Positions 3,724-34,010 of a DNA stretch of 38,184 bases are shown here, piece after piece. The DNA is from a virus. The DNA lies in the IMG/VR virus record IMGVR_UViG_3300042898_000689, positions 1-38,184 of that record; one strand, written 5' to 3'. Below the pieces are notes generated by a model. It did no database searches. It saw nothing but the letters and a program-made list of their open reading frames with translations, and was not told where the DNA came from. Each line of letters opens with the position of its first letter. Positions within the stretch are counted from its first letter, which is position 1. Made by a program: the position numbers and the translations under genes.

Positions 3724-4163
3724 TGGCACAGTTCCATCAGCAAAGTTTCTCCGCACGATTTGGGGCAATGGGCGACGAAGCCGAAGGAGTCTTTGAAGAA
3801 TTAAACGAAGGAAAGTTTGTTCGTTACGGGTTAAACAGACCGCCAGTAAACATGGCAATGCTGACACCGTTCATTCGTTACACCCCCGACTATCTGGTTT
3901 CAAGAGGTTTGGTAGAAGTCCAAGGTGTCGGCAAGGACCGTAAACTTAAACTGAAAATAGATAAAGCGTTGGCGTTGCAGCAATGGTCAACACACTTTGA
4001 TCTGCTGTTCTTTATCTGGGATACCACCCTTAAACGCTCAGGGTACGTTCAATGGAAAGACCTGTGGGCTGTTCTCCCCACAATGCCTATTAAACATTTC
4101 CCAGAAGGTAAGCCTTATTGGGAAATCGACGTTGACAATCACATTTGGGTTTCGGAAGAATAA
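3723..4163 (+). CDS. Putative PD-(D/E)XK nuclease-like protein
   Basis: 146 aa. FIRYTPDYLVSRGLVEVQGV followed by Lys-rich sequence places PD (about 54-55) and ExQ (about 64-66) at the spacing of a minimal restriction-like nuclease core, with Gln in place of the usual catalytic Lys. A helix ending in ALALQQW follows. That ExQ form occurs in some active members of the superfamily. It sits directly after RusA, so a structure-specific nuclease role in replication or recombination is plausible. The start is in a TAATG overlap and the same overlap leads into the next gene. Confidence 0.7.
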   Translation: MAQFHQQSFSARFGAMGDEAEGVFEELNEGKFVRYGLNRPPVNMAMLTPFIRYTPDYLVSRGLVEVQGVGKDRKLKLKIDKALALQQWSTHFDLLFFIWDTTLKRSGYVQWKDLWAVLPTMPIKHFPEGKPYWEIDVDNHIWVSEE

Positions 4164-4543
4164 TGTCAAAAGAGGAAGCGAAATACAAGAAATACGAAAC
4201 TCCTCAACCAACCCCTACATGGGAGAAATCACCCACACGCCCAGACACGCCTTATCAGGCGTTAATGGAAGCAGCACCATTCCAACCAACAGATATCTCA
4301 GTAGTCGAAATGTTGGAAGCCAAAGAAGCGCTAGCAGACGCATTTGATACACTCACAGCGGAGGAACAATGGGTATTGAATTCTTTAGTAATAGAAAAAA
4401 TGTCAATCAGGGAACTAGGGAATCAGATCGGGGCTCCGAAAACGACTATGGCTCGTATCCGAGACAAGGCACTTGGGAAAATGCGAGACTCGCTTTCGGA
4501 CAACCCAGCGATTCTGAACTTGCTGGGGGAAGTGAAGGAATGA
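4163..4543 (+). CDS. Sigma-70 region 4-like helix-turn-helix protein
   Basis: 126 aa from the TAATG start at 4163. The C-terminal half reads LTAEEQWVLNSLVIEKMSIR, then ELGNQIGAPKTTMARIRDKA, a sigma region 4-type HTH (about residues 66-112). The N-terminal 45 residues are charged and low-complexity (TPQPTPTWEKSP) with no region 2. A protein with only region 4 could recognise a -35 element with host RNA polymerase, or act as an anti-sigma or co-activator. It is a candidate for switching transcription to the GGGACA-type late elements. HTH identity is well supported; the promoter target is inference. Confidence 0.78.
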   Translation: MSKEEAKYKKYETPQPTPTWEKSPTRPDTPYQALMEAAPFQPTDISVVEMLEAKEALADAFDTLTAEEQWVLNSLVIEKMSIRELGNQIGAPKTTMARIRDKALGKMRDSLSDNPAILNLLGEVKE

Positions 4544-5438: not shown

Positions 5439-5634
5439 AGAAGACCGCATTGAACTAGGAGGCGTACACATCATACGCATCTTAGAACCAGATGGAACCA
5501 TGTCATTAGAGGTTAATACTGACGATGAAATCCATCAATGGGAAGTAATCGGAATGCTGACAGTAGCAATGCAATGGGAACTAGACTCATACCCCGTACC
5601 CGAAGACGACGATGAAACGGATGAATGGACATGA
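5431..5634 (+). CDS. Small acidic protein, unknown function (GTG start)
   Basis: 67 aa starting at a GTG that overlaps the previous gene by 8 nt. A short beta-rich part (GGVHIIRILEPDGTMSLEVN) is followed by a helix and an acidic tail (PEDDDETDEWT). Nothing diagnostic is seen. Confidence 0.7.
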   Translation: MSEEDRIELGGVHIIRILEPDGTMSLEVNTDDEIHQWEVIGMLTVAMQWELDSYPVPEDDDETDEWT

Positions 5635-7016: not shown

Positions 7017-7877
7017 CTATTTAAGCCAGAACCACGTTTGTGGTCCGACAATTCCATCGACAGCCAAACGGTTGCCAAGATTAAAGAAGTTGCGGATATC
7101 AGTTTGCGCCCGACGCACAGCAGCCTCAGTCGCAGGACCAAACACACCATCAACAGTCAAACCAGCATTACTCCTAGCGTTCAGCAACACCTGAAGCCAC
7201 CTCACAGCGTCACCCTTAGAGCCACGACGAAGCACCTGCGAACGCGCATGGTTGATTGCATCGTTAATCCAACTAAGGTCAGGCAATGGGGCGGGGACAG
7301 GCTCAGGAGGCGGCGCAGGCTCATAAACACCAGCATGGCGTTTAATGGCAACCAGCAACATGATACTCAGACCCCACTCTTGTGGGTGATTAACAAAAGC
7401 GTCGCTACGATCTCGTGGCTGTGCTTCCCCATGCTGACAAAGCCCAGCACGTTCAAGGACCTCGGACTCAATCCATTCATTAGACGCAATCGGGTCAAAC
7501 CCGTTGCGTCGCCAGAAATCCACGATCTCCTTGGCGGCACGGTCGATCATCACATTCGTTGCCCAGTCATCCACATTCAGTTCAGATGACTTGCACGCTA
7601 GTGCGATGTTCCAGCAACGGCTGTTGTATTTACTCGTCGCCACACCGAATGCCGTGTAACTGTCTGGCATCAGGAAGACGGTGGAATTCCAGTCCACGAT
7701 ACAATGGTACGATCCTGCGTTGCTGCGACGGCTTATATAGGCCGCAGTATTTTCAGCAGAATCATCGCCACCCACACCCTCGGTGGTGTGAAGAACCACG
7801 CCACCAGTCATGGGGACGTTGCGGGATGGCCAGAATTGACGGCTGGCAGGAGGATTGTCAAGAAGGTAGTAGCCCAT
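7017..7877 (-). CDS. Endolysin: N-acetylmuramoyl-L-alanine amidase with peptidoglycan-binding domain
   Basis: 286 aa. The N-terminal PGRP/amidase domain (about 8-170) has the zinc ligand His30 in VVLHTTEG, His58 in GSYHCIVD, and a later His/Asp-rich segment (CQHGEAQPRDRSDAFVNH) that can supply the remaining ligand. A Pro-rich hinge (EPAPPPEPVPAPLPDLSW) leads to a PG_binding_1 domain (about 213-286; RRGSKGDAVRWLQVLLN; VDGVFGPATEAAVRRAQ). The enzyme cuts the bond between MurNAc and the stem peptide. The start ATG is 2 nt after the upstream gene's stop, with no clear Shine-Dalgarno. A GGGACAGTTC element lies 16 nt before the ATG, inside the end of that gene. Confidence 0.93.
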   Translation of the reverse strand: MGYYLLDNPPASRQFWPSRNVPMTGGVVLHTTEGVGGDDSAENTAAYISRRSNAGSYHCIVDWNSTVFLMPDSYTAFGVATSKYNSRCWNIALACKSSELNVDDWATNVMIDRAAKEIVDFWRRNGFDPIASNEWIESEVLERAGLCQHGEAQPRDRSDAFVNHPQEWGLSIMLLVAIKRHAGVYEPAPPPEPVPAPLPDLSWINDAINHARSQVLRRGSKGDAVRWLQVLLNARSNAGLTVDGVFGPATEAAVRRAQTDIRNFFNLGNRLAVDGIVGPQTWFWLK

Positions 7878-7879
7878 AC

Positions 7880-8158
7880 CTATAAGGTTGAACTGTCCCG
7901 ATATTCCGTTACATGGGCTTTTTCATGCTCAGCCTGCCAAATCTGAACATTGTCTAGTCTGTTGTCCAGTCTGTCTACTTTGGAGTCGATGCTACCAACC
8001 TGATTAGACAGATGATGCAATAGGCTGGAATTATGATTGTGTTGGTCGGTGTTCTCAGACCGCAACTTCCGAACCGAAAGAATCGTTGCCGAAGCAGCGA
8101 TTAAAGCCACCATCACAGGAACAATAGCGACCTCAGCGATCCGCAACACCGAATCCAT
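7880..8158 (-). CDS. DUF2746-like membrane/coiled-coil lysis-cassette protein
   Basis: 92 aa from ATG 8158, in a TAATG overlap with the giant protein's stop; a 106-aa frame from 8200 is less likely. One membrane span (about 5-28: LRIAEVAIVPVMVALIAASA) is followed by a coiled coil (SNQVGSIDSKVDRLDNRLDN) and a His/Glu-rich tail. This layout matches the DUF2746 proteins beside mycobacteriophage endolysins, thought to act as holin-like or spanin-like helpers. The family match is by pattern; function is inferred from position. Confidence 0.75.
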   Translation of the reverse strand: MDSVLRIAEVAIVPVMVALIAASATILSVRKLRSENTDQHNHNSSLLHHLSNQVGSIDSKVDRLDNRLDNVQIWQAEHEKAHVTEYRDSSTL

Positions 8159-11100
8159 TAGTTGTTCCCTTCTCCCAGCGCAGCAACCACAGCGGCCCAA
8201 TCAACCTTCTTTGTGGACGCAACATTCGTAAACGGAGAGTCCGAAGGCAAACCACCCTTGGGTTGCAGCAACGTCAAATACGGGCGCTTATCAGCAGCCG
8301 TTGGCTTAGATGCCAACGAAACCTGCTTCTGCCAATAATCGTAACCGCCGTAACCAAGTTTCTGAAGATCCTCAGCCATCTGGTCAATTTTCTTCTGACG
8401 AGCCCGAATCTCACCGTACTTATCAGACTGCGTGTTTGCACGCAACGACAAACCAAACGCCATGTTAAGAACAGTAACAGGCAAACGATCCTGATACCTA
8501 GGTTCATCAGGAAGCAAACGCTTTGCACGACCCAGCAACGGAAAGAACTGCTCCATAGCGTAAAGGTACTTGTCTTGAGCCATCAGGTTGCCGTTAATGT
8601 CACGTTCAGCGAAACCAAGGGTTTCCATGGCAGCACCCAAACCAGCCTTTTCGTAAGGGGTTGGAACCTGCACATATCCAAGGAACGGTGAAGACTCACC
8701 AAAATACAATTTGGTGTCCATAACCATTTCAACAGGAGTTTTAAGAACAGGGTTGACCTGCCCAAGCAGGTCATTCCAGTTGCCCAAAACATTAAGGTCC
8801 TTAATGGGCATATCAGGCATAAGATAAGTCTGGCCACCAGGAAGTGCAAATGGCAAACGAATATTCATTCGGTCACTCATCCACGAAGGAATCAAATCCT
8901 CAGGGTCCGACGCTGCCTCAATGGAATCCTTAGTTTCAACGTAACGAGCGTATGCTTTAGGGTTGCGGAAAACCATCTCCATCTGTGTCGGCAAGTTTTT
9001 TCGGAACCAAGTGTAAAACGGTGAAATCCGTTTCATGACGGAGTTTTCAAAATTGTTCAAATCGCTGTAATCAAAATGTGCTTTGAAAACAAGATCGTAG
9101 ATACCCTCAACGCCACGACCTGACTCAGCAGCATGAATAGCAGCACCACCACGCAACGTGCGTTCCATCTTACGGTTCATACTGTAAGTAGCACGGTTCA
9201 GCGGAGTATCAGCCAAGAACGTCAACACATCACGACGGCCACCAGCACCCGTAACCTGCTTCAAATCCGTTAGAGCATTCTCAACCTGACCGCCCAACTC
9301 CAAAACACCCGAAGCATGAACCATTCGATACGAGTCAGGCAAACCAGCCAAAGCCTCCTCAACAGTTTTGCCAGCATTAATAGCACGATTAAAAGCACGA
9401 TCAGCGCTCAAGAAGCGTTGCGTAGCACCAGGCGAAACTCCAAACAAATAATTCATATATATACCCGAATAACCGTTACGGGCAATAAATCCAGGAGTAG
9501 CAACAGCCCACGACTTAAACAAACGTGTGGCCCGATCAAAATACTTTAAGAAACTTGGCAACTCGTTAGGAGCAGTCACACGAGTCACCAACGCCATAGC
9601 ATCAGCAATATCCATAGGCGACTGTGAAGAACGTGAAATCTCAGCAAAACCCTTACGGACAATGTAACGAGCAGCCTCATCAGCCTTAGGTCCACGCAAC
9701 CAAACCGCATACTCGTAATCATCTGACGCTTTACCCAAACGGGTCAACGCCCGTTCCTCAGCGACCATCGCAATCTCAATAGCCCGCTGACCACGATTCA
9801 ACTCATCAAGACGCATACGAGCAGCATCATTAAACTCGCTAACCTTACGGTTCATGTTGTTATCAAACAACGCCTGCTTCTGCTTCTCAATCTTGCTAAG
9901 TTTCTGAGAGAAACCCTTAATGTTGGAATCAATCTCATCCAACTGAGCCAACTTATCAGCCTGCTGTGTAGTCAAACGCTTATTGGCCTTACCAACCTTA
10001 GTGATCTCAGCACGCAAATCATTAATCTTCTGCTGAGTCTTAGCCGACATACGCTTGGCCTTAGTGCCAGTAGCCGCAGTTCCAGGCTCCCCGCCCATAG
10101 CCTTAGCAGCGGCCTGCTTCGTTTGAGAAGCCTTAGTCATAGTCTTCATCGCAGCAGGATTATCAGCATTTGCGGCAGCAGCAGTCATAGCAGCAGGATC
10201 ATTGTCAGTCGCTTTAGCCATATCGGCCATAGCCTTTTTCTGAGCAGGCTCCATGCCCAACTCGCGAGTAACCTGCTTAATCACATCGTCAGTACTCTGG
10301 CTATCAATCGAACCGACAAGACGGATAACTTGCTCTTCAGTCAGACCGCTTGTGGTCGAAGCGAAACGTGCAACCTGAGCCGAATCCTCAGACAACTGAA
10401 CAGCCTGAACCGTACGCAACGAAGCCCGTTCGTAACGATTCTTAAACTCAAGGAACCTTGGATTAAGATTAGGATTCTCTCCAAAGTTGTTGGCGAATGA
10501 TGCTGACTCTTTTTCAGCATCATCCAAAGCCTTAGTCATGCGGCCAAACGCAACCTGTTCCTCCATCGCTGCCTCAGCAGCGTTGGCAGCACGAACATCA
10601 AGGTCAGCCACAAGTTTCTCAGTCTTAGCCAAACCTTCAAGTTCATCGTTTACAGCACGCCAATCAGACTTTGGCTCTCCACCCTTAAGTTCAGTACTGC
10701 GCGCACGATTTCTAGCCCGACGCATCTTAACGGTCTTATCGTTAATAGCAGTTTGAAGTTCACCACGCATAGCCTGAGTGTCATCAACATATTGCATAGT
10801 TGCTGTTTCCCACTCAGGGGTATAACCACCCTTAGGTGGTTCAGCAGTCCACGAACGTCCAGCAGAACCCAACCTAGGGTCAGCAGACATACGGGCCGCA
10901 GCATCCTGCGCCCGCAAATTATCCATGTATTCGTAAAAGCCCTTATTCTCCGCAGCCTGCATATCACGCAAAGCACCACGCATCTGCCACTCTGCAACAG
11001 CCATCTGTTCAGGAGAAGCCCCAATGTCACCCAAAGTTTTATGAGCGTCCCTTGCAGCCTCATACGCATCCTGACGGGCAATAACCTCAGGAACATCAGC

Positions 11101-14100
11101 AGCAGCCAAACGATTATTCTGCTGCAAATCAACAATCCGAGCCTGACGCTCAGGAGGCAAATCAGCCATAACCGACTGATATGTCACACCCTTGGGCTTG
11201 TTGTAAATAACAGTTTCAGGTTCAGTACCAGTAAAACCTTTATTTAAGAAAGGTTTATCACGCTTCAACTGCTGAAGCGCAGCCTCATTCTTAGCGACCT
11301 TTGCTTCCATCCTTGTGATAGCAGCAGTATCGCCAGAAGCCTCTTCAATCTTAGAAGCAACAAACGCAGCCCGATCAGACTCAGCGTTCTTTAACGCAGC
11401 CCTAGCCTTATCCAACTTGTTGCCAGCAGTCTTGGTCTTCTGGGCATTACGACCCGCAGCAGCAATCCTGAATTCTTCGGCAGCATCAGCAACAGCCTGA
11501 CGAGCCTTAATTACCTCAGGACCCTCACCTTGCAAACCTTTACGGGCAGCAGCAGCACCCCGACGAGCAGCCCTAGCCGACTCAACTTCACGTTTACCAG
11601 CAGCAATTGACGCTTCCAACTCGTTCCTAGAACGGATTGAAGTCCGAATCTCGTCTTCAGAAAAACGACTGAGACCCTGCATATTCTCAGGGTTAGCCAA
11701 CAAATCAGCAGGATTGAACTGTTGACCAGGAACCTCAGGGATCGCCTGAGGTTCTGGTATCGGCATTGCTTCAGGAATAGCCTCAGGCATTGCAGCAGGA
11801 ACCGCTTCAGGCACAGCAGCAGGTACGGTAGGCTTATAAGCAGCCAAATTCTTTTCAGCCTTAGCCAAAGCCTTTTGAGCAATAGCCAATTCTTTTTCAG
11901 CAGCCTTACCGCCCTGACCCATCTTCACAGCATTGGCAAGGTCATCAACCTCAAATTGCAGATCAGAAACATCACTAGCAAGTTTGTTCAACTCTGCATC
12001 AACCATTGTGGCCGACGGAACGGGAGCGGCAGCAGCCGCCTCAGCAGCATTGTCAGCCGCCGCAGCAGCGGCAGGAACAGCACCAGTAGCACCAGCAGCA
12101 GCCTGAGCAGCAGGAGCAGGTTCCTTCGGCAACAACTTCGCCAACTCCGCCTCAAGATCAGCAGCCTTAACCTGACCCTTAGCAACACGATCAGCCAAAG
12201 ACTCAACCTTCGACATTAACAACGCATGATCGTTCTGCAATTTCGTTAAAGCAGCACGATACTGAATTTGCTTAGGACTATCCTTAGGCACTTTGCCCGC
12301 GGCCACACGGATCTCATCCATCGCAGCAACAAGACGTTCATTTGCTTCACGAATAGCAACACGAGCCTCAGCCCGAACCATAATGCCAGACAAATACGCA
12401 TCCTCAGAACGCCCAATGGCGTTCATCAAACGATCAGCAGCCTGCTCAATTTTTCTTCTAGCCTTAGCAGGGCTCTTAGGATAATCCTTTAAGATCGTAT
12501 CCAACTCTGCGTTACCAGTCGGACGTGACCGCAAATACGCCGCTGCAACTTCTTCACCATGAGCAGCCGTGTACATACGCAAAGCACGACGCTGATTAGA
12601 AATATAATTTAGATCAAAAAGATCATACCCGAAAGTAGTTTTGTTTAACGCATTAACCTGCTCACGAACACTACGCCCAGCACGATCAGGTTTAAGGGTT
12701 TGAAACCGCACACTACTCTCAGGAGCAGTCTGATACTTAGAACGACCCTTTTTATCAACAACTCTAAAACGGGCAGTAGGTTCAGAAACATTCCGATTAT
12801 TTGTTAGAACCTCAAACTGGGCGTCACGGATAGCAGCATCACGGCCAGCCTTACCACGCCCAACACCAACACCAATAACATTACCCTGATCGTCTAAAAT
12901 CCGAGTAATATATTGTGTGGGATGACGCAAATCTTGATCTAAAAACTTGCGACCAACATCATAGTTGCGTCGCAAATCAGGACCAGCAGTACGTCCCTTA
13001 CCAGTATTCCTATAATTTTTACCTTGACCAACGCCAGCCGCAACAGCCTCATCAGTCAACTTTGACGCTTGGTGCATGGCAACATCGTCACCATAAATTG
13101 GCATCATCTGGTCTGCCCCAACACCAGCAGCATCCAACTGACGACCTCCAACCTCTATGGAGGTTGGCTTCCAAGACGCTTCAAACGCTTTAGCATCATC
13201 AACAAGCGTGGGATCAACAGCAGCAATACGCTGTGCAGCAGCAGCATTGCCACCCATAGCGTTATTCAAATCAACAGGATCAATATTCCCATTAAGAACA
13301 CGCTGTTCAATATCGCCAAGACCCTTAGCCTGCCTAAGTTCATAAGACGCCTCGCCACCAGAAGCAAGACGCTTAGCATCCTGAATATTACGAAACGCCA
13401 ACGCCTGTTCAGGAGTATCAGCGTTCAAAATCTTTCGCTTAATGCGACCTTCGCCACCAGCCCAACGAGGGCTCTCCCCAATCTCAGACATAATCCGAGA
13501 TGTTTTAATACTACCAAGAGTGTTAGACCCTGTGGACGAAATCTTACGCATCCAATCAGGACGCCCAAGATAAACCTGCTTCAACTCAGGAGCAGGACCA
13601 CCCAAAGTAGTAGAAACACGACTAGCAATACGACCAGTACCAGGAACGTTCCAATACAAACCACCCCGTAAAGGCTCATCAATAAGATTTGCCCCCTGAA
13701 GTTTGCCACCAAGCCAAGCCATATCAGACTTATCTAAGGCACCCAAACCACCTTGTCCCTTACGGACAAGGTTACCAGCGATAGTGGACAAACGAGCAGC
13801 GTCATCCACACTACCCGCAGCCCTAGCACTAATCGCTGCTGTTTCAGCCAACTTAGAGATACCTGAAGCACCACCAAGTTTAGTGATAACACCAGCACCA
13901 GCAAGATATGTTAAAGGATCAAGAGCAATAGAAGTACCAAGGCCAACACCAATTTTAGCAGCAGTAGGTAAATTTTTATACCAATCCTGAGTAGCAAAAA
14001 TTTCAGGAGGAGTAATGCCGCTACGAACGTCTTTAAGAAAGTTGCGATTAGGGTCTGCTGTCCTTGCGGCCGTTGCAGTAACTAATGTTAAAGGCAAACT

Positions 14101-14424
14101 AACTGCTTGACCAATACGGTCAACAAAAGATTTGCTTTCCGATTTAGCGTTAGGGGCCTTTCCTGTAGCCGAAAGTTTACTGCCAAGAGGTGCGTTGGAG
14201 TTATTGATATTGGCAATAGATTGCGCAAGTTTTGCTTGCGCATTAGCCAAATAATCTGAAGAATTTAAATTGCCACCAGTTTTAGAAAAAGCAGAAGCAA
14301 GAACATTTAATTGTTCAGGAGTAAAAGATTTTTTTAACCCACCAGCAGTAACTTTTGGCATAGACCTTGAAACTGCACCAAGTCTTGCCAAAGTTGCTGA
14401 ATCGACAGTAACTTTTTTAGCCAT
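8158..14424 (-). CDS. Giant (2088 aa) internal virion / DNA-ejection protein
   Basis: The largest gene, 16% of the genome. The N-terminus has amphipathic and hydrophobic stretches (about 150-190: AKIGVGLGTSIALDPLTYLA). The middle (about 700-1500) is Ala/Glu/Lys-rich coiled coil, with an Ala-rich patch and a Pro-Glu-Ala-rich linker of PEAxP repeats near 870-900. The C-terminal about 500 residues contain VVATPGFIARN-type and FDYSDLNNFENSVMKRISPF, then YTWFRKNLPTQMEMVFRNP, which resemble the ends of large phage 'polyvalent' or ejection proteins. No lysozyme or protease active site is obvious. Three genes in a row (15962 to 8158) probably form the ejected internal core of this short-tailed virion. 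It may also partly replace a tape-measure function. Confidence 0.82.
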   Translation of the reverse strand: MAKKVTVDSATLARLGAVSRSMPKVTAGGLKKSFTPEQLNVLASAFSKTGGNLNSSDYLANAQAKLAQSIANINNSNAPLGSKLSATGKAPNAKSESKSFVDRIGQAVSLPLTLVTATAARTADPNRNFLKDVRSGITPPEIFATQDWYKNLPTAAKIGVGLGTSIALDPLTYLAGAGVITKLGGASGISKLAETAAISARAAGSVDDAARLSTIAGNLVRKGQGGLGALDKSDMAWLGGKLQGANLIDEPLRGGLYWNVPGTGRIASRVSTTLGGPAPELKQVYLGRPDWMRKISSTGSNTLGSIKTSRIMSEIGESPRWAGGEGRIKRKILNADTPEQALAFRNIQDAKRLASGGEASYELRQAKGLGDIEQRVLNGNIDPVDLNNAMGGNAAAAQRIAAVDPTLVDDAKAFEASWKPTSIEVGGRQLDAAGVGADQMMPIYGDDVAMHQASKLTDEAVAAGVGQGKNYRNTGKGRTAGPDLRRNYDVGRKFLDQDLRHPTQYITRILDDQGNVIGVGVGRGKAGRDAAIRDAQFEVLTNNRNVSEPTARFRVVDKKGRSKYQTAPESSVRFQTLKPDRAGRSVREQVNALNKTTFGYDLFDLNYISNQRRALRMYTAAHGEEVAAAYLRSRPTGNAELDTILKDYPKSPAKARRKIEQAADRLMNAIGRSEDAYLSGIMVRAEARVAIREANERLVAAMDEIRVAAGKVPKDSPKQIQYRAALTKLQNDHALLMSKVESLADRVAKGQVKAADLEAELAKLLPKEPAPAAQAAAGATGAVPAAAAAADNAAEAAAAAPVPSATMVDAELNKLASDVSDLQFEVDDLANAVKMGQGGKAAEKELAIAQKALAKAEKNLAAYKPTVPAAVPEAVPAAMPEAIPEAMPIPEPQAIPEVPGQQFNPADLLANPENMQGLSRFSEDEIRTSIRSRNELEASIAAGKREVESARAARRGAAAARKGLQGEGPEVIKARQAVADAAEEFRIAAAGRNAQKTKTAGNKLDKARAALKNAESDRAAFVASKIEEASGDTAAITRMEAKVAKNEAALQQLKRDKPFLNKGFTGTEPETVIYNKPKGVTYQSVMADLPPERQARIVDLQQNNRLAAADVPEVIARQDAYEAARDAHKTLGDIGASPEQMAVAEWQMRGALRDMQAAENKGFYEYMDNLRAQDAAARMSADPRLGSAGRSWTAEPPKGGYTPEWETATMQYVDDTQAMRGELQTAINDKTVKMRRARNRARSTELKGGEPKSDWRAVNDELEGLAKTEKLVADLDVRAANAAEAAMEEQVAFGRMTKALDDAEKESASFANNFGENPNLNPRFLEFKNRYERASLRTVQAVQLSEDSAQVARFASTTSGLTEEQVIRLVGSIDSQSTDDVIKQVTRELGMEPAQKKAMADMAKATDNDPAAMTAAAANADNPAAMKTMTKASQTKQAAAKAMGGEPGTAATGTKAKRMSAKTQQKINDLRAEITKVGKANKRLTTQQADKLAQLDEIDSNIKGFSQKLSKIEKQKQALFDNNMNRKVSEFNDAARMRLDELNRGQRAIEIAMVAEERALTRLGKASDDYEYAVWLRGPKADEAARYIVRKGFAEISRSSQSPMDIADAMALVTRVTAPNELPSFLKYFDRATRLFKSWAVATPGFIARNGYSGIYMNYLFGVSPGATQRFLSADRAFNRAINAGKTVEEALAGLPDSYRMVHASGVLELGGQVENALTDLKQVTGAGGRRDVLTFLADTPLNRATYSMNRKMERTLRGGAAIHAAESGRGVEGIYDLVFKAHFDYSDLNNFENSVMKRISPFYTWFRKNLPTQMEMVFRNPKAYARYVETKDSIEAASDPEDLIPSWMSDRMNIRLPFALPGGQTYLMPDMPIKDLNVLGNWNDLLGQVNPVLKTPVEMVMDTKLYFGESSPFLGYVQVPTPYEKAGLGAAMETLGFAERDINGNLMAQDKYLYAMEQFFPLLGRAKRLLPDEPRYQDRLPVTVLNMAFGLSLRANTQSDKYGEIRARQKKIDQMAEDLQKLGYGGYDYWQKQVSLASKPTAADKRPYLTLLQPKGGLPSDSPFTNVASTKKVDWAAVVAALGEGNN

Positions 14425-15527: not shown

Positions 15528-15962
15528 TTACATCACTTCCCGTAGTTGAGTAGCCAACTGTGATTGACGTGCATTGCGTTCCGCAGCAATTGACTCCAAA
15601 GCCATATTGCGCTGCAACTCAATGTCTCCGCCCTGCTCATTGTATGAACCCATATTGCGTTCATACTGACGTTGCAAATCACCTAAAGCCTGCTGAAAAT
15701 CAAGATTAGACTGTTGGCGTGCGCCTTGGTAAATGCCCGACCGCAACACATTGCGTCGGGCAAAACTGGCAGGGAATTGGCGATAAGTCCTAGCCCAATT
15801 CTTATTGGCCCGATCTTGAGCCAAACCAAAATCCTGAACAGTTTCAGATTTACGGTTGGCTAACTTAAATAATCCACGTTGGGCAGCAGTACCAGCCTGC
15901 TGTTGACGTAGTTCATATGCCGCAATTTCGGCTGGTTGAAGGTAATTTGTCACATTGCTCAT
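15528..15962 (-). CDS. Small Gln/Arg-rich internal virion protein
   Basis: 144 aa, helical, rich in Gln, Arg and Ala (AEIAAYELRQQQAGTAAQRG; SNLDFQQALGDLQRQYERNM). The tail NARQSQLATQLREVM is amphipathic. Size and position resemble the small internal core proteins (T7 gp14-like role) encoded just before the larger ejection proteins. AAAGG upstream is the SD. A GGGACA element lies in the 26-nt gap before the ATG. Confidence 0.72.
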   Translation of the reverse strand: MSNVTNYLQPAEIAAYELRQQQAGTAAQRGLFKLANRKSETVQDFGLAQDRANKNWARTYRQFPASFARRNVLRSGIYQGARQQSNLDFQQALGDLQRQYERNMGSYNEQGGDIELQRNMALESIAAERNARQSQLATQLREVM

Positions 15963-15988
15963 CTATAATAGCCTTTAATGTCCCGTTC

Positions 15989-23775: not shown

Positions 23776-23789
23776 TTTTTCCTTGGAGT

Positions 23790-23806
23790 CCCATGACGAT
23801 CATGGG
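23790..23806 (-). promoter_or_regulatory. 7-bp hairpin in the leader between portal and scaffold
   Basis: CCCATGA / TCATGGG around CGA in the leader between the GGGACACTTTT element (23833-23838) and the scaffold start. It could set mRNA stability or translation of the scaffold-capsid transcript, or be an operator. Confidence 0.4.
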
Positions 23807-23815
23807 TTATTCCCT

Positions 23816-23839
23816 ATTAGAGATATTAAAAGTGTCCCG
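23816..23839 (-). promoter_or_regulatory. GGGACA-type late element before scaffold/capsid
   Basis: CGGGACACTTTTAATATCTC then TAATAGGG. It lies right after the portal stop and 40-60 nt before the scaffold start, a sensible place to boost scaffold and capsid transcription. Confidence 0.6.
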
Positions 23840-23841
23840 AA

Positions 23842-25815
23842 TTAAAGTTGCAAGCCCATTTGGTTTTGCAACTGAGCAAGCAATTCAGGAGGCAAACCGC
23901 CCTGACCAGTTTGTGACATATTGGTTTGCGGAGCAGGTTGCATACCCGCTTGTTCCATACCGCCAGCATTTTGAGCAGCCAACAAATCCATAGGATTCAT
24001 TTGCTCACCATTCATGCCAGGTTCACCCTTAGGTGGACCCATACCAGCATCAGGACCCATAGGCATAGCATTAGGGTCCTGTGGCATAGGTTGACCGTCA
24101 GGTCCCATAGCCATTGGCGGAGGCGGAGGCATCATAAATTTGCCTGGAGATTTAATACCAAAACCAAACTGAAGCACATGCTTAGCAATCTGCTGAGGAT
24201 CAATAACAGACCCAATAAGCGGAGCCAAACTATTCATCATTGCAACAGCCTGCTGACGACGGAAAGTATCATTCTGTGGCTGAGTAGAACCGCCCTCAAC
24301 TTGGAAATCAAACTCACCCTCAATGTCATCAGGTGTAAAATCAAACCAAAACTGTTGACCCTCAGCACCAACAATGCGTGCAGCCTGCTCACCAGTCATA
24401 TACTGCTGAGCCAACTGAACGATCTTGCGAGCAATATTGCCAATAGCAAGTTCGATCAAAGCCAACTTATCCGCAGACCTAGCGTTACTGGCATCCTGAA
24501 TCATCGCTGCTTCAGTAGCAGTACGGCGCACCTCAGGGGTTGCGCCACGAGCGTATTCATTCACACCCGAAACCTTATCCATATCAGCCTCAATGATTTG
24601 GCTGTACTGATAAAGATCACCAGACATGGGAGTAATCGGAACAGGCAAAATAACATCACCAAGAGGCTGATTGTCATCAACAACCTCAATAGCAACGTTA
24701 TCTTCGTTAGATTCAAGCCCTTGACGGCCTTCAGGTCCAAGCGCAGAAGCACGGTACAGATATTTGCGACCGTACTTCTTACGATGGTTCATCATTTGTG
24801 AACGAGTCTTGTTAAGTTCCTGTTGGGGAGCCTCAATCATTTCAAGATCACCGATGGGGTAAAACTCATCGGGGATTTCGTAGTTTGCAATAAACTCGTA
24901 AGGATGGCCAAACTCGTATGGCATTTCCTGAGGGTCAATTAGGAAATCATCTCCACCTTCAGCAAAAACAGAAATGGTTTCACGTTGAAGATCGTAGAAT
25001 TCCCAGACCGTAACACGTTGAATGTCGCTATCGACCTTACGTTTTTGATCTTGAGTCAACCAATCAGACGAAAGGACAGCATCAGCCTTCAGATCACGAC
25101 GGACCCGACCGTTGTAACGGCTGTCTTCCTTAACTTCCTCAATAGGACGGATAATGCGTTGAGCAATCCATTTAGCGTCTTCCAAAGACGTTGCTTCAGG
25201 GTCAACGAACATATCAAACGGAGAAACACGTTCCAAATACGGTTGATCCTCAAGGATAACCATCTTTGATTCAGGAACATTCGCTGCAATTTCCTCATCC
25301 GTAGGCACTTCATTGGCCATTTCAGGATTTTCCATTGCATATTCATCAGCCTGAGCAACCATTTCCTCAAACTGACCACGTTTTTCGCCTTCGGAAAGTT
25401 CTTCTTCCCCTTCAGCAAATTTATAACCAACTTTAATCCAACCGTGGCCGACAGTTAGAAAGTCTTTTGCGGCACGACGAAAAGGAGTGCGGAAATTGTA
25501 GTGTCTCCACCAGTAATTAATGACAGATTCAGTAATTACAGCACGATCCTCGTCCGCAGGACGATTAGCCATAACCTCAATCTTTGGATGATTGACAGTA
25601 ATGGACGGGAAAATTACGTTAATTGTTGAAAACGCAATATTGATCGCAATGCGATCTTCTTCGCCAATTCCCTTAGGGAAATGCTTGCCTTTATACAGGT
25701 CAAGCATACGTTCCCAAGTCTTATCCAAACCAGTTTCTTCGCGCCAACGCTTAGCGTGGTCAAGACGATTACGGTATCGCTTTAAAGATTCGGATTTAGA
25801 TATTTTTTTAGCCAT
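23842..25815 (-). CDS. Portal protein
   Basis: 657 aa, the usual length of podovirus portals. The N-terminal part, RWREETGLDKTWERMLDLYK and INIAFSTINVIFPSITVNHP, is the standard portal opening. The middle has PYLERVSPFDMFVDPEATSL, and the wing/crown helices include SQMMNHRKKYGRKYLYRAS and EVRRTATEAAMIQDASNARS. The C-terminus (about 565-657) is Pro/Met/Gln-rich and disordered. Twelve copies would form the packaging vertex that docks TerL and later the adaptor. The gene is followed immediately by the GGGACACTTTT element. Confidence 0.93.
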   Translation of the reverse strand: MAKKISKSESLKRYRNRLDHAKRWREETGLDKTWERMLDLYKGKHFPKGIGEEDRIAINIAFSTINVIFPSITVNHPKIEVMANRPADEDRAVITESVINYWWRHYNFRTPFRRAAKDFLTVGHGWIKVGYKFAEGEEELSEGEKRGQFEEMVAQADEYAMENPEMANEVPTDEEIAANVPESKMVILEDQPYLERVSPFDMFVDPEATSLEDAKWIAQRIIRPIEEVKEDSRYNGRVRRDLKADAVLSSDWLTQDQKRKVDSDIQRVTVWEFYDLQRETISVFAEGGDDFLIDPQEMPYEFGHPYEFIANYEIPDEFYPIGDLEMIEAPQQELNKTRSQMMNHRKKYGRKYLYRASALGPEGRQGLESNEDNVAIEVVDDNQPLGDVILPVPITPMSGDLYQYSQIIEADMDKVSGVNEYARGATPEVRRTATEAAMIQDASNARSADKLALIELAIGNIARKIVQLAQQYMTGEQAARIVGAEGQQFWFDFTPDDIEGEFDFQVEGGSTQPQNDTFRRQQAVAMMNSLAPLIGSVIDPQQIAKHVLQFGFGIKSPGKFMMPPPPPMAMGPDGQPMPQDPNAMPMGPDAGMGPPKGEPGMNGEQMNPMDLLAAQNAGGMEQAGMQPAPQTNMSQTGQGGLPPELLAQLQNQMGLQL

Positions 25816-25827
25816 TAGAAATGTGCC

Positions 25828-26028
25828 TTAACAACGTTCAGGTTCGTAGCCGTTTGCGCGTGCCGAAGCAAGCGTACTGTCAATACGTTCACGCAAAGTA
25901 GGACCATTCCAATGGTCATGGTCAGGGAGCGCAAGCCCAGGAATACCGTCCTCACGCCAATACTTCATTTTACAGGCGAAACAGGGATGCGGTTGGGTGA
26001 TGCACTCCTTGTAGGAGTGATCTGTCAC
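25828..26028 (-). CDS. Small Cys/His-containing protein (GTG start), unknown function
   Basis: 66 aa, GTG start directly after the TAA of the upstream gene. Cys/His residues in KECITQPHPCFACKMKYW suggest a metal site; the rest includes a helix (RERIDSTLASARANGYEPER). It lies just before the portal gene. Function unknown. Confidence 0.65.
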   Translation of the reverse strand: MTDHSYKECITQPHPCFACKMKYWREDGIPGLALPDHDHWNGPTLRERIDSTLASARANGYEPERC

Positions 26029-26265
26029 TTAGATTTCCTGTGAGCCACCAGGTCGTGCAGCCTTGGGGATATCACCAGAGCCCGTACGGATGCCTTGAGC
26101 AGAACCAGGAGAAGCGGACTTCGGAAGATCAGTCGTGACCTTCACGTTGCCGAAACCTTCGCCGCCACCGTCTTGAACGTCGTTCATCATAAACGATGGG
26201 GCCTTGCCGTGATAGCACTTTGGTGTTTCACCAGCACCAACAGAATTGTATGCACGAGATTTCAT
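26029..26265 (-). CDS. Small Gly/Ser-rich protein, unknown function
   Basis: 78 aa, GGAG ribosome-binding site 8 nt before the ATG. It is Gly, Ser and Pro-rich with low secondary structure (GGGEGFGNVKVTTDLPKSAS; GIRTGSGDIPKAARPGGS), including two similar P-K-(S/A)-A-(S/R)-P-G phrases. It is the first gene after the GGGACACTTTT element that follows TerL. No family recognised. Confidence 0.65.
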   Translation of the reverse strand: MKSRAYNSVGAGETPKCYHGKAPSFMMNDVQDGGGEGFGNVKVTTDLPKSASPGSAQGIRTGSGDIPKAARPGGSQEI

Positions 26266-26293
26266 TTTAACTCCAAAATAATAGGACAGTCCT

Positions 26294-26316
26294 AAGAAGT
26301 AGCCAAAAGTGTCCCG
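26294..26316 (-). promoter_or_regulatory. GGGACA-type late element after terL
   Basis: CGGGACACTTTTGGCTACTT then CTTAGG, starting at the TerL stop. Next to it is the palindrome AGGACTGTCCT (26284-26294), which could be an operator. Upstream of genes 26265 and 26028 and the portal. Confidence 0.55.
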
Positions 26317-27903
26317 TCAGCGTCTAGTGGAACTAGCCCCAATATTCCATTTGCTTTCATTACTGTCTTCCTCAGGCTTCAAATTAGCCCACCAATCAAC
26401 GGTCATATAGTTATCAACCTTCTCCTTGTACTCAGGAGCCCAAGCGTAACCAAGCATTTGATTGGCAATAGCCAAAGACATAACACGGTCGTCATGTGGA
26501 GAGCCACCCATAGCCCCACGTTCGTCACGGACGTAAGTCCGCAACTCACCTAAGGTTCCAGCGCACAACAACGTAATATCACGCTCACGGATAGCCCTAG
26601 CCAGTTCATCAATCATCAAAGGCTTAGTTGATTTGTTGGTATGCCAACCGTATTCGGTCATTGGGGTGTTGCCTTGAGTCGAATTTACCCGTCTGCGACG
26701 GAAAATTCGTTTATAACCTGCCCTACGAAGACTGGTAATCGTTGTTAAACCGTGGTTGTTGGATTCAATTCCAACCAAGGCGGTGTTATACCATGTTGCC
26801 AGTTTAAAGATTTCTTCACCAAATAGATCGGCGGGAATATGGCCGTGCCATTCGGCCACAACGTCCCCTGATTCGACCTCAATAACGTGGGCAGCGGAGT
26901 AGTCGCCCCAATCTAAACCTTCAGCAACGTCAGCACCAATAACGTACGCTTTGTGTGGCTGAGGGAACTCCCAAACCAGCACAGGGTCCAAAGCATCGTT
27001 GCTGTGGTTGGCAAGCCATTCAAAGTTACGCAACGATCCTCGTTGCACCAGCGTTCCAACACTAGGTTCTTCTGGTATGACCTTTGTCACAAGATCGTCA
27101 ACGTCGAAAACGGTACGACCAGACTTAATAAACGCTTCCTCGGCATTGCTAGGGTATTCCTGAGCCAACTGCCAACTGGTCATTGACCGCTTTTTGTTCT
27201 TATACCATTCTTGATCTCGTTCTTCATTAGCAGACCAAGGATAAAACATTGGTGAGAACTGGTTTGTGCGGGTTTCCGCTCCAACCCACATTTGGTGAAA
27301 GAAGTTACCGCTACCGTTTGCAGTACTGAGGCCAATGATTCGGCCACCAACGTCCGCAACAGGCTCAATAGAAGCCCACGCTTCTTCAGGATTAGGCAAG
27401 AACGCCCATTCATCCACAACAATCAACGTTGCCGATTCACCACGGGCAGGATCGGACGCACTAGGCATAGAGACAATTTGACTACCATTGTCAAAAACCA
27501 TTTTTTGCTGATGCTCAACTTGCGACTGTGGCCCACGTTCCAACATCCATTTCGGAAGGTTGCGGTAACCGTACTTTGTTTTCTTCAACAACAATACGGC
27601 TTCACGTTCAGTACGAGAAATATCAATAATGTTTTGATCTGATTTAAACCATGCCAACCAAAACTGATGGCCAGCCACCAAAGTAGTCCAACCAATCTGG
27701 CGAGCCTTAAGGGTTAATGAGTATCGTTCCCGACCCCATTCCTTTAAGGCTTCACGTTGCGCTTCACGCAACTTAAACAGGACACGACCGTCCTTAGGGT
27801 TCTGGATGTTCCAATAGTTTTCCAGAAAATAGGCTTCGTCTTTAACACATCTACGCCACTCAAGTTCCTGTTTCAACTCAAGTAGACGTGAACGATTAGC
27901 CAT
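26317..27903 (-). CDS. terL: Terminase large subunit
   Basis: 528 aa. ATPase: Walker A-type KARQIGWTT (66-74), Walker B LIVVDEWAF with Asp164/Glu165, coupling motif LSTANG (192-197). RNase H-like nuclease: Asp325 in VIGADVAEGLDWGDYS, Glu380 in ALVGIESNNHG, and Asp471/472 in GGSPHDDRVMSLAIA. It pumps DNA into the prohead through the portal and cuts concatemers. It overlaps the upstream membrane-protein gene by 8 nt. The headful or cos nature of packaging cannot be told from this gene alone. Confidence 0.96.
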   Translation of the reverse strand: MANRSRLLELKQELEWRRCVKDEAYFLENYWNIQNPKDGRVLFKLREAQREALKEWGRERYSLTLKARQIGWTTLVAGHQFWLAWFKSDQNIIDISRTEREAVLLLKKTKYGYRNLPKWMLERGPQSQVEHQQKMVFDNGSQIVSMPSASDPARGESATLIVVDEWAFLPNPEEAWASIEPVADVGGRIIGLSTANGSGNFFHQMWVGAETRTNQFSPMFYPWSANEERDQEWYKNKKRSMTSWQLAQEYPSNAEEAFIKSGRTVFDVDDLVTKVIPEEPSVGTLVQRGSLRNFEWLANHSNDALDPVLVWEFPQPHKAYVIGADVAEGLDWGDYSAAHVIEVESGDVVAEWHGHIPADLFGEEIFKLATWYNTALVGIESNNHGLTTITSLRRAGYKRIFRRRRVNSTQGNTPMTEYGWHTNKSTKPLMIDELARAIRERDITLLCAGTLGELRTYVRDERGAMGGSPHDDRVMSLAIANQMLGYAWAPEYKEKVDNYMTVDWWANLKPEEDSNESKWNIGASSTRR

Positions 27904-28126
27904 TGCGTTTCCATTTCATAAGATTCCAGCCATTAACGCTCCACCACAACGGTGGCATTAACGCTGCACCCCAATTATTTGACATTAAAGAAAAAACAAA
28001 CCAGGGGATAGAATGTAGCATGACTACACCCCATCCCCACCATCGGTTCGTTCCTACAATGTATTGGCCCCAAAGACCAATCGCTTCAAAAACTAGCAGC
28101 ACAAGCCACCATGTTTGCTCAGACAG
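27896..28126 (-). CDS. Trp-rich small membrane protein, probable CTG start
   Basis: 76 aa if it starts at CTG 28126, where AAGGAAAG lies 6 nt upstream. The first standard start is GTG 28102, which has no ribosome-binding site and would remove the residues SEQTWWL that read as a normal N-terminus. Two or three Trp-rich hydrophobic segments (LVLLVFEAIGLWGQYIV; WWGWGVVMLHSIPWFVFSL; LMPPLWWSVNGWNLMKW) make it an integral membrane protein. It resembles small membrane proteins of unknown role in actinophages. It lies just before TerL, overlapping it by 8 nt. Confidence 0.65.
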   Translation of the reverse strand: MSEQTWWLVLLVFEAIGLWGQYIVGTNRWWGWGVVMLHSIPWFVFSLMSNNWGAALMPPLWWSVNGWNLMKWKRNG

Positions 28127-28129
28127 AAA

Positions 28130-28375
28130 TTACTTTCCTTTAAGCGATGGTGTTGTAGTTGTTCCCTTGTACTCTTTTGACATACTGCGCAACATTGCTC
28201 GTTTTTCTCGTGAAATATTAGATTTAAGAGCCCTAATGCCAACTGCTTGCCCAATAGCCTCACGATTTGTCAGATTCTTATCACCGTAAGCCGAAGTAGC
28301 AATGCGGTCCAAGGCTTTATCTGTTGACAACGACTTCCTGGATCGTCCTTTATCTTTGGGCATATAAGCAGGCAT
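28130..28375 (-). CDS. Small basic protein, unknown function
   Basis: 81 aa, Lys/Arg/Ser-rich (PKDKGRSRKSLSTDKALDRI; KSNISREKRAMLRSMSKEYK). AGGA lies upstream of the ATG. It is the first gene after the GGGACAGTTTT element of 28413-28440. Possible nucleic-acid or packaging factor; no family recognised. Confidence 0.65.
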   Translation of the reverse strand: MPAYMPKDKGRSRKSLSTDKALDRIATSAYGDKNLTNREAIGQAVGIRALKSNISREKRAMLRSMSKEYKGTTTTPSLKGK

Positions 28376-28412
28376 AATTTAGATCCTAAGGTCAGGCCCC
28401 ATCCACCATGAG

Positions 28413-28440
28413 GCTATATAAACAATATAAAACTGTCCCG
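28413..28440 (-). promoter_or_regulatory. GGGACA-type late element upstream of the 81-aa gene
   Basis: CGGGACAGTTTTATATTGTT then TATATAG, in the 66-bp gap between the DUF6321-like gene and 28375. Best-preserved copy together with that at 29369-29395. The AT-rich TATATAG end could be a -10 region. Confidence 0.65.
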
Positions 28441-28441
28441 A

Positions 28442-28747
28442 CTAAGACTTCTTAGCCTTCAAACGCTTTGACATAGCAGCAGCCTTAGCCCGTGCATCAG
28501 CCTTAGAACGGGCTCCCCAAGCATACAGCGACAACAAAAGTCTGGTGGGTTCACCATTAGGCTTACGCTCAGGCCCAGGCATATTACCCATACGAGCCAG
28601 GAAACTGGCTCGCCGTGGATTATCACCAGACTTCACAGGAGCCCTAAGGGTTCCGCCAGTCTGCGCCTTATAAGACGCACGACCCTTAGCGTTCAAACCA
28701 CCCTTAGGATTCTGACCTTCCTTACGCTGCCACGCTGCACTAGCCAT
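28442..28747 (-). CDS. DUF6321-like small basic protein
   Basis: 101 aa. ASAAWQRKEGQNPKGGLNAK, then GRASYKAQTGGTLRAPVK, RRASFLARMGNMPGPERKP and a basic Lys/Ala tail. This AWQRKEGxNPxGGLNxKGRxSY...RRxSFxARMxxM pattern is the one I associate with the DUF6321 family found in many marine and environmental phages. Its role is unknown; the high positive charge suggests DNA or RNA contact. TAATG-coupled to the Lys-rich gene upstream. Confidence 0.75.
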   Translation of the reverse strand: MASAAWQRKEGQNPKGGLNAKGRASYKAQTGGTLRAPVKSGDNPRRASFLARMGNMPGPERKPNGEPTRLLLSLYAWGARSKADARAKAAAMSKRLKAKKS

Positions 28748-28923
28748 TACTTCTTCTTCTTCTTGGCTGCGTTCATATTGTCCACCAAATTAGGATAAGG
28801 ACGACCAGCCTTAACAGCAGACTTCTTAGCAGCAGCCTTCGCTGTGGGAGACAACTTCTTCGACGCACCCTTAGGTGCGGGCTTCTCCCAAACCATCTTC
28901 TTAGCAGCCATCTTCTTAGCCAT
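28747..28923 (-). CDS. Very basic Lys/Ala-rich 58-aa protein (histone-like tail)
   Basis: Just below common ORF cut-offs. It overlaps the small terminase stop by 8 nt and the next gene by TAATG, with TCCTC-complementary GAGGAATATA upstream. Sequence is KKMAAKKM, SKKLSPTAKAAAKKSAVKAG and a final run of five Lys. It resembles histone H1-like tails and may condense or neutralise DNA in the virion, or help the terminase hold DNA. Confidence 0.65.
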   Translation of the reverse strand: MAKKMAAKKMVWEKPAPKGASKKLSPTAKAAAKKSAVKAGRPYPNLVDNMNAAKKKKK

Positions 28924-29371
28924 TATATTCCTCCGTTAACTGACGCAACTCTGCAAGCAAATCCTCATCCGTAAGCGACTTCGTTTCAGTATCCTCAGAA
29001 CGAATAATACGCTTCGGCGTAAACCGATCAATATACTGCAAATACAAATTCGCAGCCTTAACATCCCCATTAATCGCAGCCTGATGCAAAGCATCAACAA
29101 CCGACTGAACACGATCAACCGAAATGTTCTTCTCCCTAGCCCGACGCTCCCACTCCTCCTGAAAACGTTTATCACGCTTCCAACGCTTCGGAGTATCAGG
29201 ATGAACCTTATTCTCCTCAGCCCACAAAGTACGATTCGACGGGTCCCTAGGATCAGACAACAACCAATCCAAAAACTTTGACTGCAACTCAGGCATCATC
29301 CAAGAGTTAGATTGGTTATCCCAATTCCAACCCTTGCCACCACCGTTACTGCCTTTCCAAGCATCTTCCAT
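28916..29371 (-). CDS. terS: Terminase small subunit
   Basis: 151 aa from ATG 29371. A frame opening at 29419 would run through the GGGACAGTTTT element and is unlikely. A start at the in-frame Met-Met of SWMMPELQ is also possible and would suit a promoter at the element. The domain after SKFLDWLLSDPRDPSNRTLW has the HTH EENKVHPDTPKRWKRDKRF and a helical oligomerisation part (VQSVVDALHQAAINGDVKAA, NLYLQYIDRFTPKR), as in phBC6A51-type small terminases. The acidic end is DEDLLAELRQLTEEYNG. It recognises phage DNA to start packaging. First gene of the late unit. Confidence 0.85.
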   Translation of the reverse strand: MEDAWKGSNGGGKGWNWDNQSNSWMMPELQSKFLDWLLSDPRDPSNRTLWAEENKVHPDTPKRWKRDKRFQEEWERRAREKNISVDRVQSVVDALHQAAINGDVKAANLYLQYIDRFTPKRIIRSEDTETKSLTDEDLLAELRQLTEEYNG

Positions 29372-29395
29372 ACAAACAACATAAAACTGTCCCAA
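29369..29395 (-). promoter_or_regulatory. GGGACA-type late element upstream of terS
   Basis: TTGGGACAGTTTTATGTTGT then TTGTATGG. It shares 22 of 24 positions with the element at 28413-28440. GGGACA is at 29393-29388 and TATGG follows 15 nt later, at the annotated terS ATG. Confidence 0.65.
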
Positions 29396-29540
29396 CACAG
29401 GGCAGACGCCCAGCGTCATTCGACGCTAGACGAATGGGCTGGGCTAGGTTGGGCTGGTCTGGTGAATGGCTGGACTTGTGATTGAACAAACCTGTGCCAT
29501 ACAGTATTCAGCCACATCACGAGTGAATTGTGTCACAAAA

Positions 29541-29564
29541 CACGAAAAACCTTTGTTTTTCGTG
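29541..29564 (+). promoter_or_regulatory. Perfect 10-bp inverted repeat next to the plus-strand GGGACA element
   Basis: CACGAAAAAC - CTTT - GTTTTTCGTG. It ends where GGGACA (29564-29569) begins, so it may be an operator controlling that element, or a terminator for minus-strand read-through. Confidence 0.5.
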
Positions 29565-29687
29565 GGACAGTATCACCTAATATATAGATGAGTGAGCAAC
29601 CACCTTTAGGTGGTGGTTGCGAACGAATACAGAACAGACAGTAAGTACTTAAGCACCCGACTAGACAAGATCTGGTCGGGTGTTTTT
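29564..29687 (+). ncRNA. Candidate short terminated transcript (leader peptide or small RNA)
   Basis: GGGACAGTATCACCTAATAT then ATAGATGAG has the same TATAGATGAG end as the element before 15962. Right after it is an 18-codon ORF (29588-29644, MSEQPPLGGGCERIQNRQ) containing the hairpin GCAACCACC/GGTGGTTGC (29596-29620). A rho-independent terminator follows at 29654-29687. The unit would give an RNA of about 100 nt that stops well before the AAA+ gene. Sequence signals are direct; expression is inferred. Confidence 0.5.
29654..29687 (+). terminator. Rho-independent terminator in the central regulatory region
   Basis: CACCCGACTAG pairs with CTGGTCGGGTG (11 bp, one G-U) around ACAAGAT and is followed by TTTTT. 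It is the clearest classic terminator in the window. It isolates the short unit at 29564 from the AAA+ operon. Confidence 0.85.
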
Positions 29688-33622: not shown

Positions 33623-33931
33623 ATGAACGAGTCCGCACTAATCCACATGATGACCGAAGAAATCCCAACCGATAACGAACGGCTCGCTGCCACAATAACG
33701 GCGAACCGTGCGCTGGCACAGTCAGGGCTGTACACGCTCAGCCATTACAACGGGAACCACGCCTGCTGGGACCTTAATCCTGACGCAGATATGCTGGCGA
33801 TCTTCCCGCCGCCTGTGCTGGCCATGATTGTCGAATTCGCTACCCATGTCGTCACGACAAGGTGCGAGGAGAACATCCTCGCCGTTAGCGGTAACAACGA
33901 GGAGATGGTCTTTCACGCTTCGATGGATTAA
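33623..33931 (+). CDS. Small protein between hammerheads B and C, unknown function
   Basis: 102 aa, SD AACGAAAGGGCAATACC. Contains IPTDNERLAATITANRALAQ, SHYNGNHACWDLNPDADMLA and FPPPVLAMIVEFATHVVTTR. Mixed alpha/beta, no motif recognised. The stop is 1 nt before hammerhead C. Confidence 0.72.
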   Translation: MNESALIHMMTEEIPTDNERLAATITANRALAQSGLYTLSHYNGNHACWDLNPDADMLAIFPPPVLAMIVEFATHVVTTRCEENILAVSGNNEEMVFHASMD

Positions 33932-33932
33932 T

Positions 33933-33992
33933 GTCGAAACCCCCGTTGGGGGTCCGCACGATCTAGCCTCCGTGCGCTGATGAGACAGGCTA
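33933..33992 (+). ncRNA. Type II hammerhead ribozyme C
   Basis: Stem II GTC (33933-35)/GAC (33984-86); GAAA (33936-39); stem III CCCCC-GTT-GGGGG; cleavage C17 at 33954; stem I CGCACG/CGTGCG (33955-60/33971-76), perfect; core CTGATGA (33977-83); pseudoknot TAGCC (33964-68)/GGCTA (33988-92). Expected cut 56 nt before the next ATG. Confidence 0.94.
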
Positions 33993-34010
33993 AACAGAAA
34001 GGCATTAATA

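Follow-up and report, generated by a model that had tools for sequence, protein, structure and literature searches.

A GGGACA element conserved at the late gene clusters of a phage genome as a probable phage-specific promoter, with a sigma region-4-like protein as candidate reader

We analyzed a 38,184-base stretch of viral DNA, IMG/VR virus record IMGVR_UViG_3300042898_000689 (hereafter the window, meaning the whole stretch), which is a complete circular-mapping phage genome whose first bases recur near its end. The hexamer GGGACA stands before late genes in this genome, and all close relatives examined have kept it at the orthologous sites, although the sequence of the spacer following it has diverged. 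The best explanation, which we consider probable, is a compact phage-specific promoter that would be read by a phage-encoded protein resembling sigma factor region 4, acting on host RNA polymerase. A sequence-only reading of the same DNA had proposed a phage-specific promoter-like element at late gene clusters, with GGGACA as a changed -35 box; the late promoter very probably stands, and a -35/-10 pairing does not. The features concerned are listed in Table 1.

Table 1. Elements, genes and transcripts considered in the window.
Feature	Position	Strand	Description
Putative late promoter element 1	29368..29393	-	GGGACA (29393-29388), spacer, TATG; predicted start = terS ATG = 29371
terS, small terminase	28916..29371	-	PHROG terminase small subunit, 4e-4
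Putative late promoter element 2	28414..28439	-	GGGACA-N15-TATAG; predicted start 28417; gene 28130-28375 downstream
Putative late promoter element 3, directly after terL	26290..26315	-	GGGACA-N15-TAGGACTGTCCTA; predicted start 26293
Putative late promoter element 4, before scaffold	23812..23838	-	GGGACA-N16-TAGGGA; predicted start 23815
Scaffold message leader	23776..23815	-	Hairpin from predicted start, then Shine-Dalgarno AAGGA
Putative late promoter element 5	15960..15984	-	GGGACA-N16-ATG; ATG = start codon of ORF 15528-15962
Putative late promoter element 6	7875..7899	-	GGGACA-N15-TATG; start codon of endolysin gene 7017-7877
Divergent element copy	29564..29589	+	GGGACA-N15-TAGATG; predicted start 29586
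Small non-coding RNA (probable)	29586..29687	+	Hairpin 29596-29620; intrinsic terminator 29653-29687
Stand-alone sigma region-4-like protein, candidate reader	4163..4543	+	126 aa

The string GGGACA[GC]TTTT occurs exactly four times in the window (29393, 28439, 26315 and 23838), always on the minus, late strand, and the copies at 29393 and 28439 are identical at 22 of 24 positions, as previously noted. With one mismatch allowed, this short string was not impressive, four being found against 1.7 expected in the window. The extended form GGGACA-N14-16-TA[GT][AG] was found seven times in the genome, compared with 0.58 ± 0.81 (maximum 5) in 200 dinucleotide shuffles. Six of the seven matches are sites already named by the sequence-only reading and lie in the divergent region or in gaps at late genes; the remaining match, at 30424, is GC-rich and falls inside a gene. 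The plus-strand copy reported at 29564 is present. Two copies that had been called weaker, at 15984 and 7899, are real, both being kept in relatives with 87-88% TerL identity; the 15984 copy falls outside the seven extended matches, its distance to TATAG being shorter. As a unit the exact 11-mer was too narrow, since most relatives lack it though GGGACA is present. The comparative data are much stronger support for the element than the window count.

Close relatives were those with TerL 82-100% identical, and site retention was judged wherever their contigs cover the sites. Six sites were kept: before terS, in the gap after the small genes, after terL, before scaffold, at ORF 15962 and at the endolysin gene. 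The 14-17 bases after GGGACA varied freely, save for a T-rich tendency. At terS, close homologues keep the box with the ATG 21-23 nt after its first G, and in several relatives an inverted GGGACA half-copy lies 5-6 nt upstream. GGGACA is present in the gap of element 2 in L008, L014 and L015 with a diverged spacer, element 3 was found in all close relatives, element 5 is kept in G001, G004 and G005, and element 6 in L145, G004 and G005. In one relative (G012/L136), whose capsid protein (MCP) is only 60% identical, the box is still present at terS, after terL and ahead of scaffold. The box is missing from the endolysin homologues of unrelated phages, several of which carry a Shine-Dalgarno sequence instead.

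The same architecture was found at the same gaps beyond the clade of the window (clade A), with a different box. Relatives with 50-57% TerL identity make up clades B (G016, G020, G025, G026), C (G017, G018, G019, G021) and D (G022, G027). None has GGGACA at these sites; the boxes are RGAACA-N13-TATGG/TAGAG in clade B, GTAACG in clade C and AGAACG in clade D. Counting ORFs of at least 50 codons on the late strand, we found the ATG at position 21 from the box start in clade B (14 of 116 boxes), 23 in clade C (15/52), 22 in clade D (8/28) and 23 in clade A (5/50), and no comparable ATG peak was obtained with the opposite strand or the reversed word. Genomes within a clade are related, so these cases are not independent events, though the genes concerned are many and different. 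An unbiased screen of words by their offset from start codons, with words overlapping the start codon left out, placed the box first or second in clades B, C and D, beside Shine-Dalgarno words. A GGGACA that clade B (L024, L030) has in the sequence for the portal C terminus was set aside as coincidental coding sequence, the clade B box lying elsewhere. The outgroup MW202803 (L247) has CGTTTCTGACGGAAACG at a constant distance before both terS and the post-terL gene, together with an unannotated region-4-like ORF (E 2e-4). Its palindrome CGTTTCNNNNGGAAACG is found repeatedly, exactly or nearly so, within genes as well as in gaps; because copies of the palindrome are spread over both strands of coding DNA, this phage was not counted as support.

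GGAACA is the -35 element of sigma-H in Mycobacterium tuberculosis (PMC6411747). Clade B has GGAACA or AGAACA and clade D AGAACG, and GGGACA is one base away from GGAACA; a TTGACA hexamer was not found at the sites, which have GGGACA in close relatives and RGAACA, GTAACG or AGAACG in the others. The box, on its sequence, is better described as a GGAAC box of the extracytoplasmic function (ECF) type than as a changed TTGACA. Nor does the earlier idea of a mutated TTGACA at -35 agree with its position, about 20 bp rather than 35 bp from the predicted start.

The distance between box and start codon points to where the message would begin. At terS, the endolysin gene and ORF 15962, the A of the ATG is base 23 from the first G of the box (22 nt after it). 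The terS start is real, because the N terminus is conserved from that codon and the changes just after it are synonymous. No Shine-Dalgarno sequence precedes terS, none is conserved at the endolysin gene or ORF 15962, many other late genes carry one, and starts at the fixed box distance mostly lack one; the terS message is probably leaderless. At the other sites the same position opens a leader, with TAGGACTGTCCTA after terL and TAGGGAATAACC or TAGAGCAACC before scaffold, and leader conservation begins at this T-A. In the pre-scaffold leaders of 17 phages TAGAG pairs with CTCTA, 90% of cells are paired, and the arms covary (9 double-change cells compared with 2.8 in shuffles). The palindrome AGGACTGTCCT of the post-terL leader is changed to AGAACTGTTCT in L134, a compensatory change. 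In clade C the 5' arm of the divergent hairpin starts 6-8 nt after the predicted start, and in G021 this arm has been exchanged completely, with compensatory changes.

These positions bear on a canonical arrangement, in which the box would be a true -35 element on the beta flap, TATGG or TAGGA the -10 after a 15-bp spacer, and transcription would start about 12 nt downstream. We consider it unlikely, although the box does resemble ECF -35 elements, the protein is region-4-like and the spacer is close to sigma usage. A start so placed would fall within the coding region of terS and genes like it. The arrangement gives no reason for the fixed position of the start codon within the -10 in dozens of genes, and terS, the first late gene, would be without a promoter of its own. 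The covarying 5' arms of the leaders would go untranscribed, and the clade C arm would be cut by a start 12 nt further on; this arm and the start codons are the main argument against the arrangement. The terminal bases also lack the T of TANNNT. Per-column information content across all clades showed the box and the start region only, with almost nothing at -12 to -9; no TANNNT hexamer was found 16-18 bp after the box, and no ECF-type -10 such as GTT/CGTC. The terminal TATG or TAGG is best read as the start site and not as a -10, because either the start codon or the first base of the conserved leader falls on it. Taking TATAG/TAGG/TATGG for a -10 is not supported, and no -10 hexamer is conserved between box and start.

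The coincidence with start codons also bears on the possibility that the box binds a phage repressor or activator over host promoters that are otherwise weak, as stoperators do in cluster A mycobacteriophages. Several oriented intergenic copies and the inverted half-copies at terS would suit such an operator. An operator, however, does not need a position tied to the start codon to the base, and no conserved host -10 or -35 lies nearby. Among the proteins scanned, which cover part of the ORFs, no integrase or repressor family was found. We regard this explanation as improbable.

The element is not purely late, since its plus-strand copy heads a conserved non-coding RNA. This copy is kept in G001, G002 and G008 with the spacing to TA retained, and divergent boxes occupy the corresponding place in clades B and C. 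The probable small RNA that follows is conserved in four phages, folds far better than its shuffles (z = -6.4, 0 of 200 shuffles) and matched no Rfam family; 16-mer matches to it in two other contigs were chance hits in unrelated sequence. The element serves the divergent region both ways, and 'late' therefore describes most of the copies and not all. At 29541-29564 an inverted repeat, CACGAAAAACCTTTGTTTTTCGTG, abuts the divergent box, with compensatory changes in G002; it looks like a terminator for leftward transcription.

An RNA-level role was also weighed, in which the box, within the transcript, would be a processing or translation signal that makes or marks 5' ends 15-17 nt downstream. 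The fixed distance to start codons that lack a Shine-Dalgarno sequence would fit. The box itself, however, shows no structural covariation, it is also carried by sites that have leaders with a Shine-Dalgarno sequence and by the non-coding RNA, and divergent copies share one gap in which no upstream sigma-70 promoters are recognizable. Such a role seems about as improbable as an operator.

The best candidate for a protein reading the box is the product of the gene at 4163. That this gene encodes a sigma region-4 fold with a helix-turn-helix, the region-4 likeness having been proposed before, was borne out by a PHROG sigma factor match (1.3e-7) and by Foldseek matches that are -35-binding domains. 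Its match to NCBIfam sigma70-ECF (2.1e-7) is below the cut-off, and Pfam Sigma70_r4 gave only 17.3 bits against a cut-off of 24.1. The AlphaFold model has a mean pLDDT above 90 for residues 61-110 and matches 3hug and 2h27 (sigma-E region 4 on -35 DNA) with a target TM of about 0.8; the closest solved folds are the -35-binding domains of ECF sigma factors. ORF 3723-4163 was discarded as the wrong ORF for the sigma gene. A region-4 homologue follows the RusA gene in all clades A-D, either standing alone or joined to the gene behind it, and its recognition helix varies jointly with the box: K[TS][TS]x[AF]R in clade A, KSHAWR in B, KPHAWR in C and KSV[TA]WY in D. G013-G015, relatives by capsid protein, lack the region-4 gene and have no box at -18 to -23. 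The joint variation of box and recognition helix and their joint absence support the 4163 protein as candidate reader, as the sequence-only reading had suggested, and it may bind the box. Region 2 (PF04542) was absent from 14 related phage genomes, with a positive control. In G012 (L222) and in G017-G019 and G021 (L226-L231, L234-L235) the region-4 protein is fused in frame to a KQxDYG-type neighbour, giving 293-309 aa; in the window the two genes are separate and overlap (4163-4543, 4369-4845).

A promoter for an unrecognized phage RNA polymerase, single-subunit or two-barrel, would share the compact architecture with a start inside the motif, and in clades B and D the TATTAGTA(+1) region is reminiscent of start regions of the T7 and mitochondrial types. 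We hold this to be very unlikely: the large ORFs scanned contain no RNA polymerase family, there is no conserved DxDGD motif, and, save for a 2088-aa virion protein without a family, no unassigned ORF is of suitable size. That protein was itself tried as a late virion or single-subunit RNA polymerase and rejected, having no family, solved relative or catalytic motif. A genome search with PF00940 carries no weight, as its positive control gave no match.

In the mechanism that we favor, a clade-specific hexamer (here GGGACA) would lie at about -22 to -17, and the A in the terminal TATG or TAGG would be the first transcribed base. At terS, the endolysin gene and ORF 15962 this A would be the first base of the start codon, giving a leaderless message, and messages from the remaining sites would open with a short leader that has a hairpin at its 5' end and carries a Shine-Dalgarno sequence. 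The region-4 protein, made from an early or middle transcript, would read the box and direct host RNA polymerase to the late genes. The clade-wise change of box and region-4 protein suggests an unusual, virus-specific steering of host RNA polymerase.

Several points weigh against this mechanism. The usual place of a region 4 bound to the beta flap is -35, and a box at -20 is geometrically odd, so another docking mode would be needed; we consider such a mode on the host core RNA polymerase most likely. In clade A, the window and G004 share one box and yet have helices that differ at several residues, and the agreement between box and helix is drawn from four related clades with few independent changes. 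The word-by-offset signal of clade A alone is weak, because most sites in this clade have leaders. The exact start sites are placed from start codons and leaders, and a TerL search of bacterial genomes for a host, whose polymerase the mechanism would use, gave nothing useful.

A stronger version, which we put forward only tentatively, is that a protein consisting of region 4 replaces a whole sigma factor, with a box at about -20, no -10 and a host core that starts at the start codon, and that box and helix have co-diverged into orthogonal promoter-factor pairs. There are four or more variants of the box, and the recognition helices that go with them are of four different kinds, which offers a ready test of region 4 reading DNA without region 2. 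From sequence, the element would also help to predict which late genes are leaderless, which start codons are used and where transcription units lie, across a large group of uncultured aquatic phages. Phage-specific late promoters with phage-encoded readers are already known. To our knowledge, no described class combines an ECF-like box about 20 bp from the start, a region-4-only candidate reader and start codons locked to the promoter to the base; the papers searched contained no class with this combination and no description of this motif.

The minus strand of the genome encodes TerL, portal, scaffold, capsid, internal virion-like and collagen-type fibre proteins, and the plus strand a DnaB helicase, an AEP primase, RusA and an AAA-ATPase. 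No near relative was found in the annotated phage collection or among phage records. The gene at 8158-14424 (-) encodes the alanine-rich protein of 2088 residues without a family, probably a virion or ejection protein, of which the C-terminal part alone is conserved across all clades. A secreted protein encoded at 5625-6107 (+) has a threonine-rich linker and weak similarity to resuscitation-promoting factors/transglycosylases, which hints at an actinobacterial host. At 33932-33994 (+), directly after ORF 33623-33931 in the plus-strand gene block, there is an Rfam Hammerhead_II match (37.2 bits, gathering 37) with an intact CUGAUGA, CGAAAC and GUC core. Near a contig end of G004 (L086), the minus strand has a canonical host-type promoter, TTGACA-N17-GATACT, that heads the early block and is unlike the late boxes. 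G014 (L259-L260), which lacks the region-4 gene, has a word of its own, TTTCCTATATT, which occupies -39 to -34 relative to several start codons and may be a further phage-specific promoter.

Among known systems, class III late promoters of the T7 type occur in several copies before late blocks (scaffold, tail, lysis) and start within the motif. Copies before late blocks and a (predicted) start in the motif are features of the present element as well, but its box lies further upstream and no single-subunit RNA polymerase gene was found in the scanned proteins. The late promoters of AR9 and phiKZ, used by the non-virion RNA polymerase, consist of AACA-N6-TA/G, or TATG, ending at the start site (PMC5312081); they share with the present element a short box ending at the start site, which is predicted here, with a spacing of 6 rather than 13-16, and rely on their own multisubunit polymerase, of which no equivalent was found in the proteins scanned here. 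The split sigma factor SigO-RsoA of Bacillus subtilis has region 4 on a separate protein (PMC8103513), as here, although no region-2 partner was found in the phage genomes. At T4 middle promoters (MotA box and AsiA, sigma appropriation) a phage DNA-binding protein and a dedicated box likewise redirect host RNA polymerase; the MotA box is centred at -30 and requires a good host -10 (PMC2988021), whereas the present element has none. The ECF (group IV) promoters of M. tuberculosis sigma-H and Escherichia coli sigma-E differ in having the box 34-29 bp from the start, compared with about 20 bp by the predicted start here (start codon 14-17 nt after the box), and the phage element lacks a -10, its phage lacks region 2, and the start codon lies at the predicted start site. 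The clade B GGAACA nevertheless equals the sigma-H consensus GGAAYA, and the candidate phage reader shares the region-4 fold of these factors.

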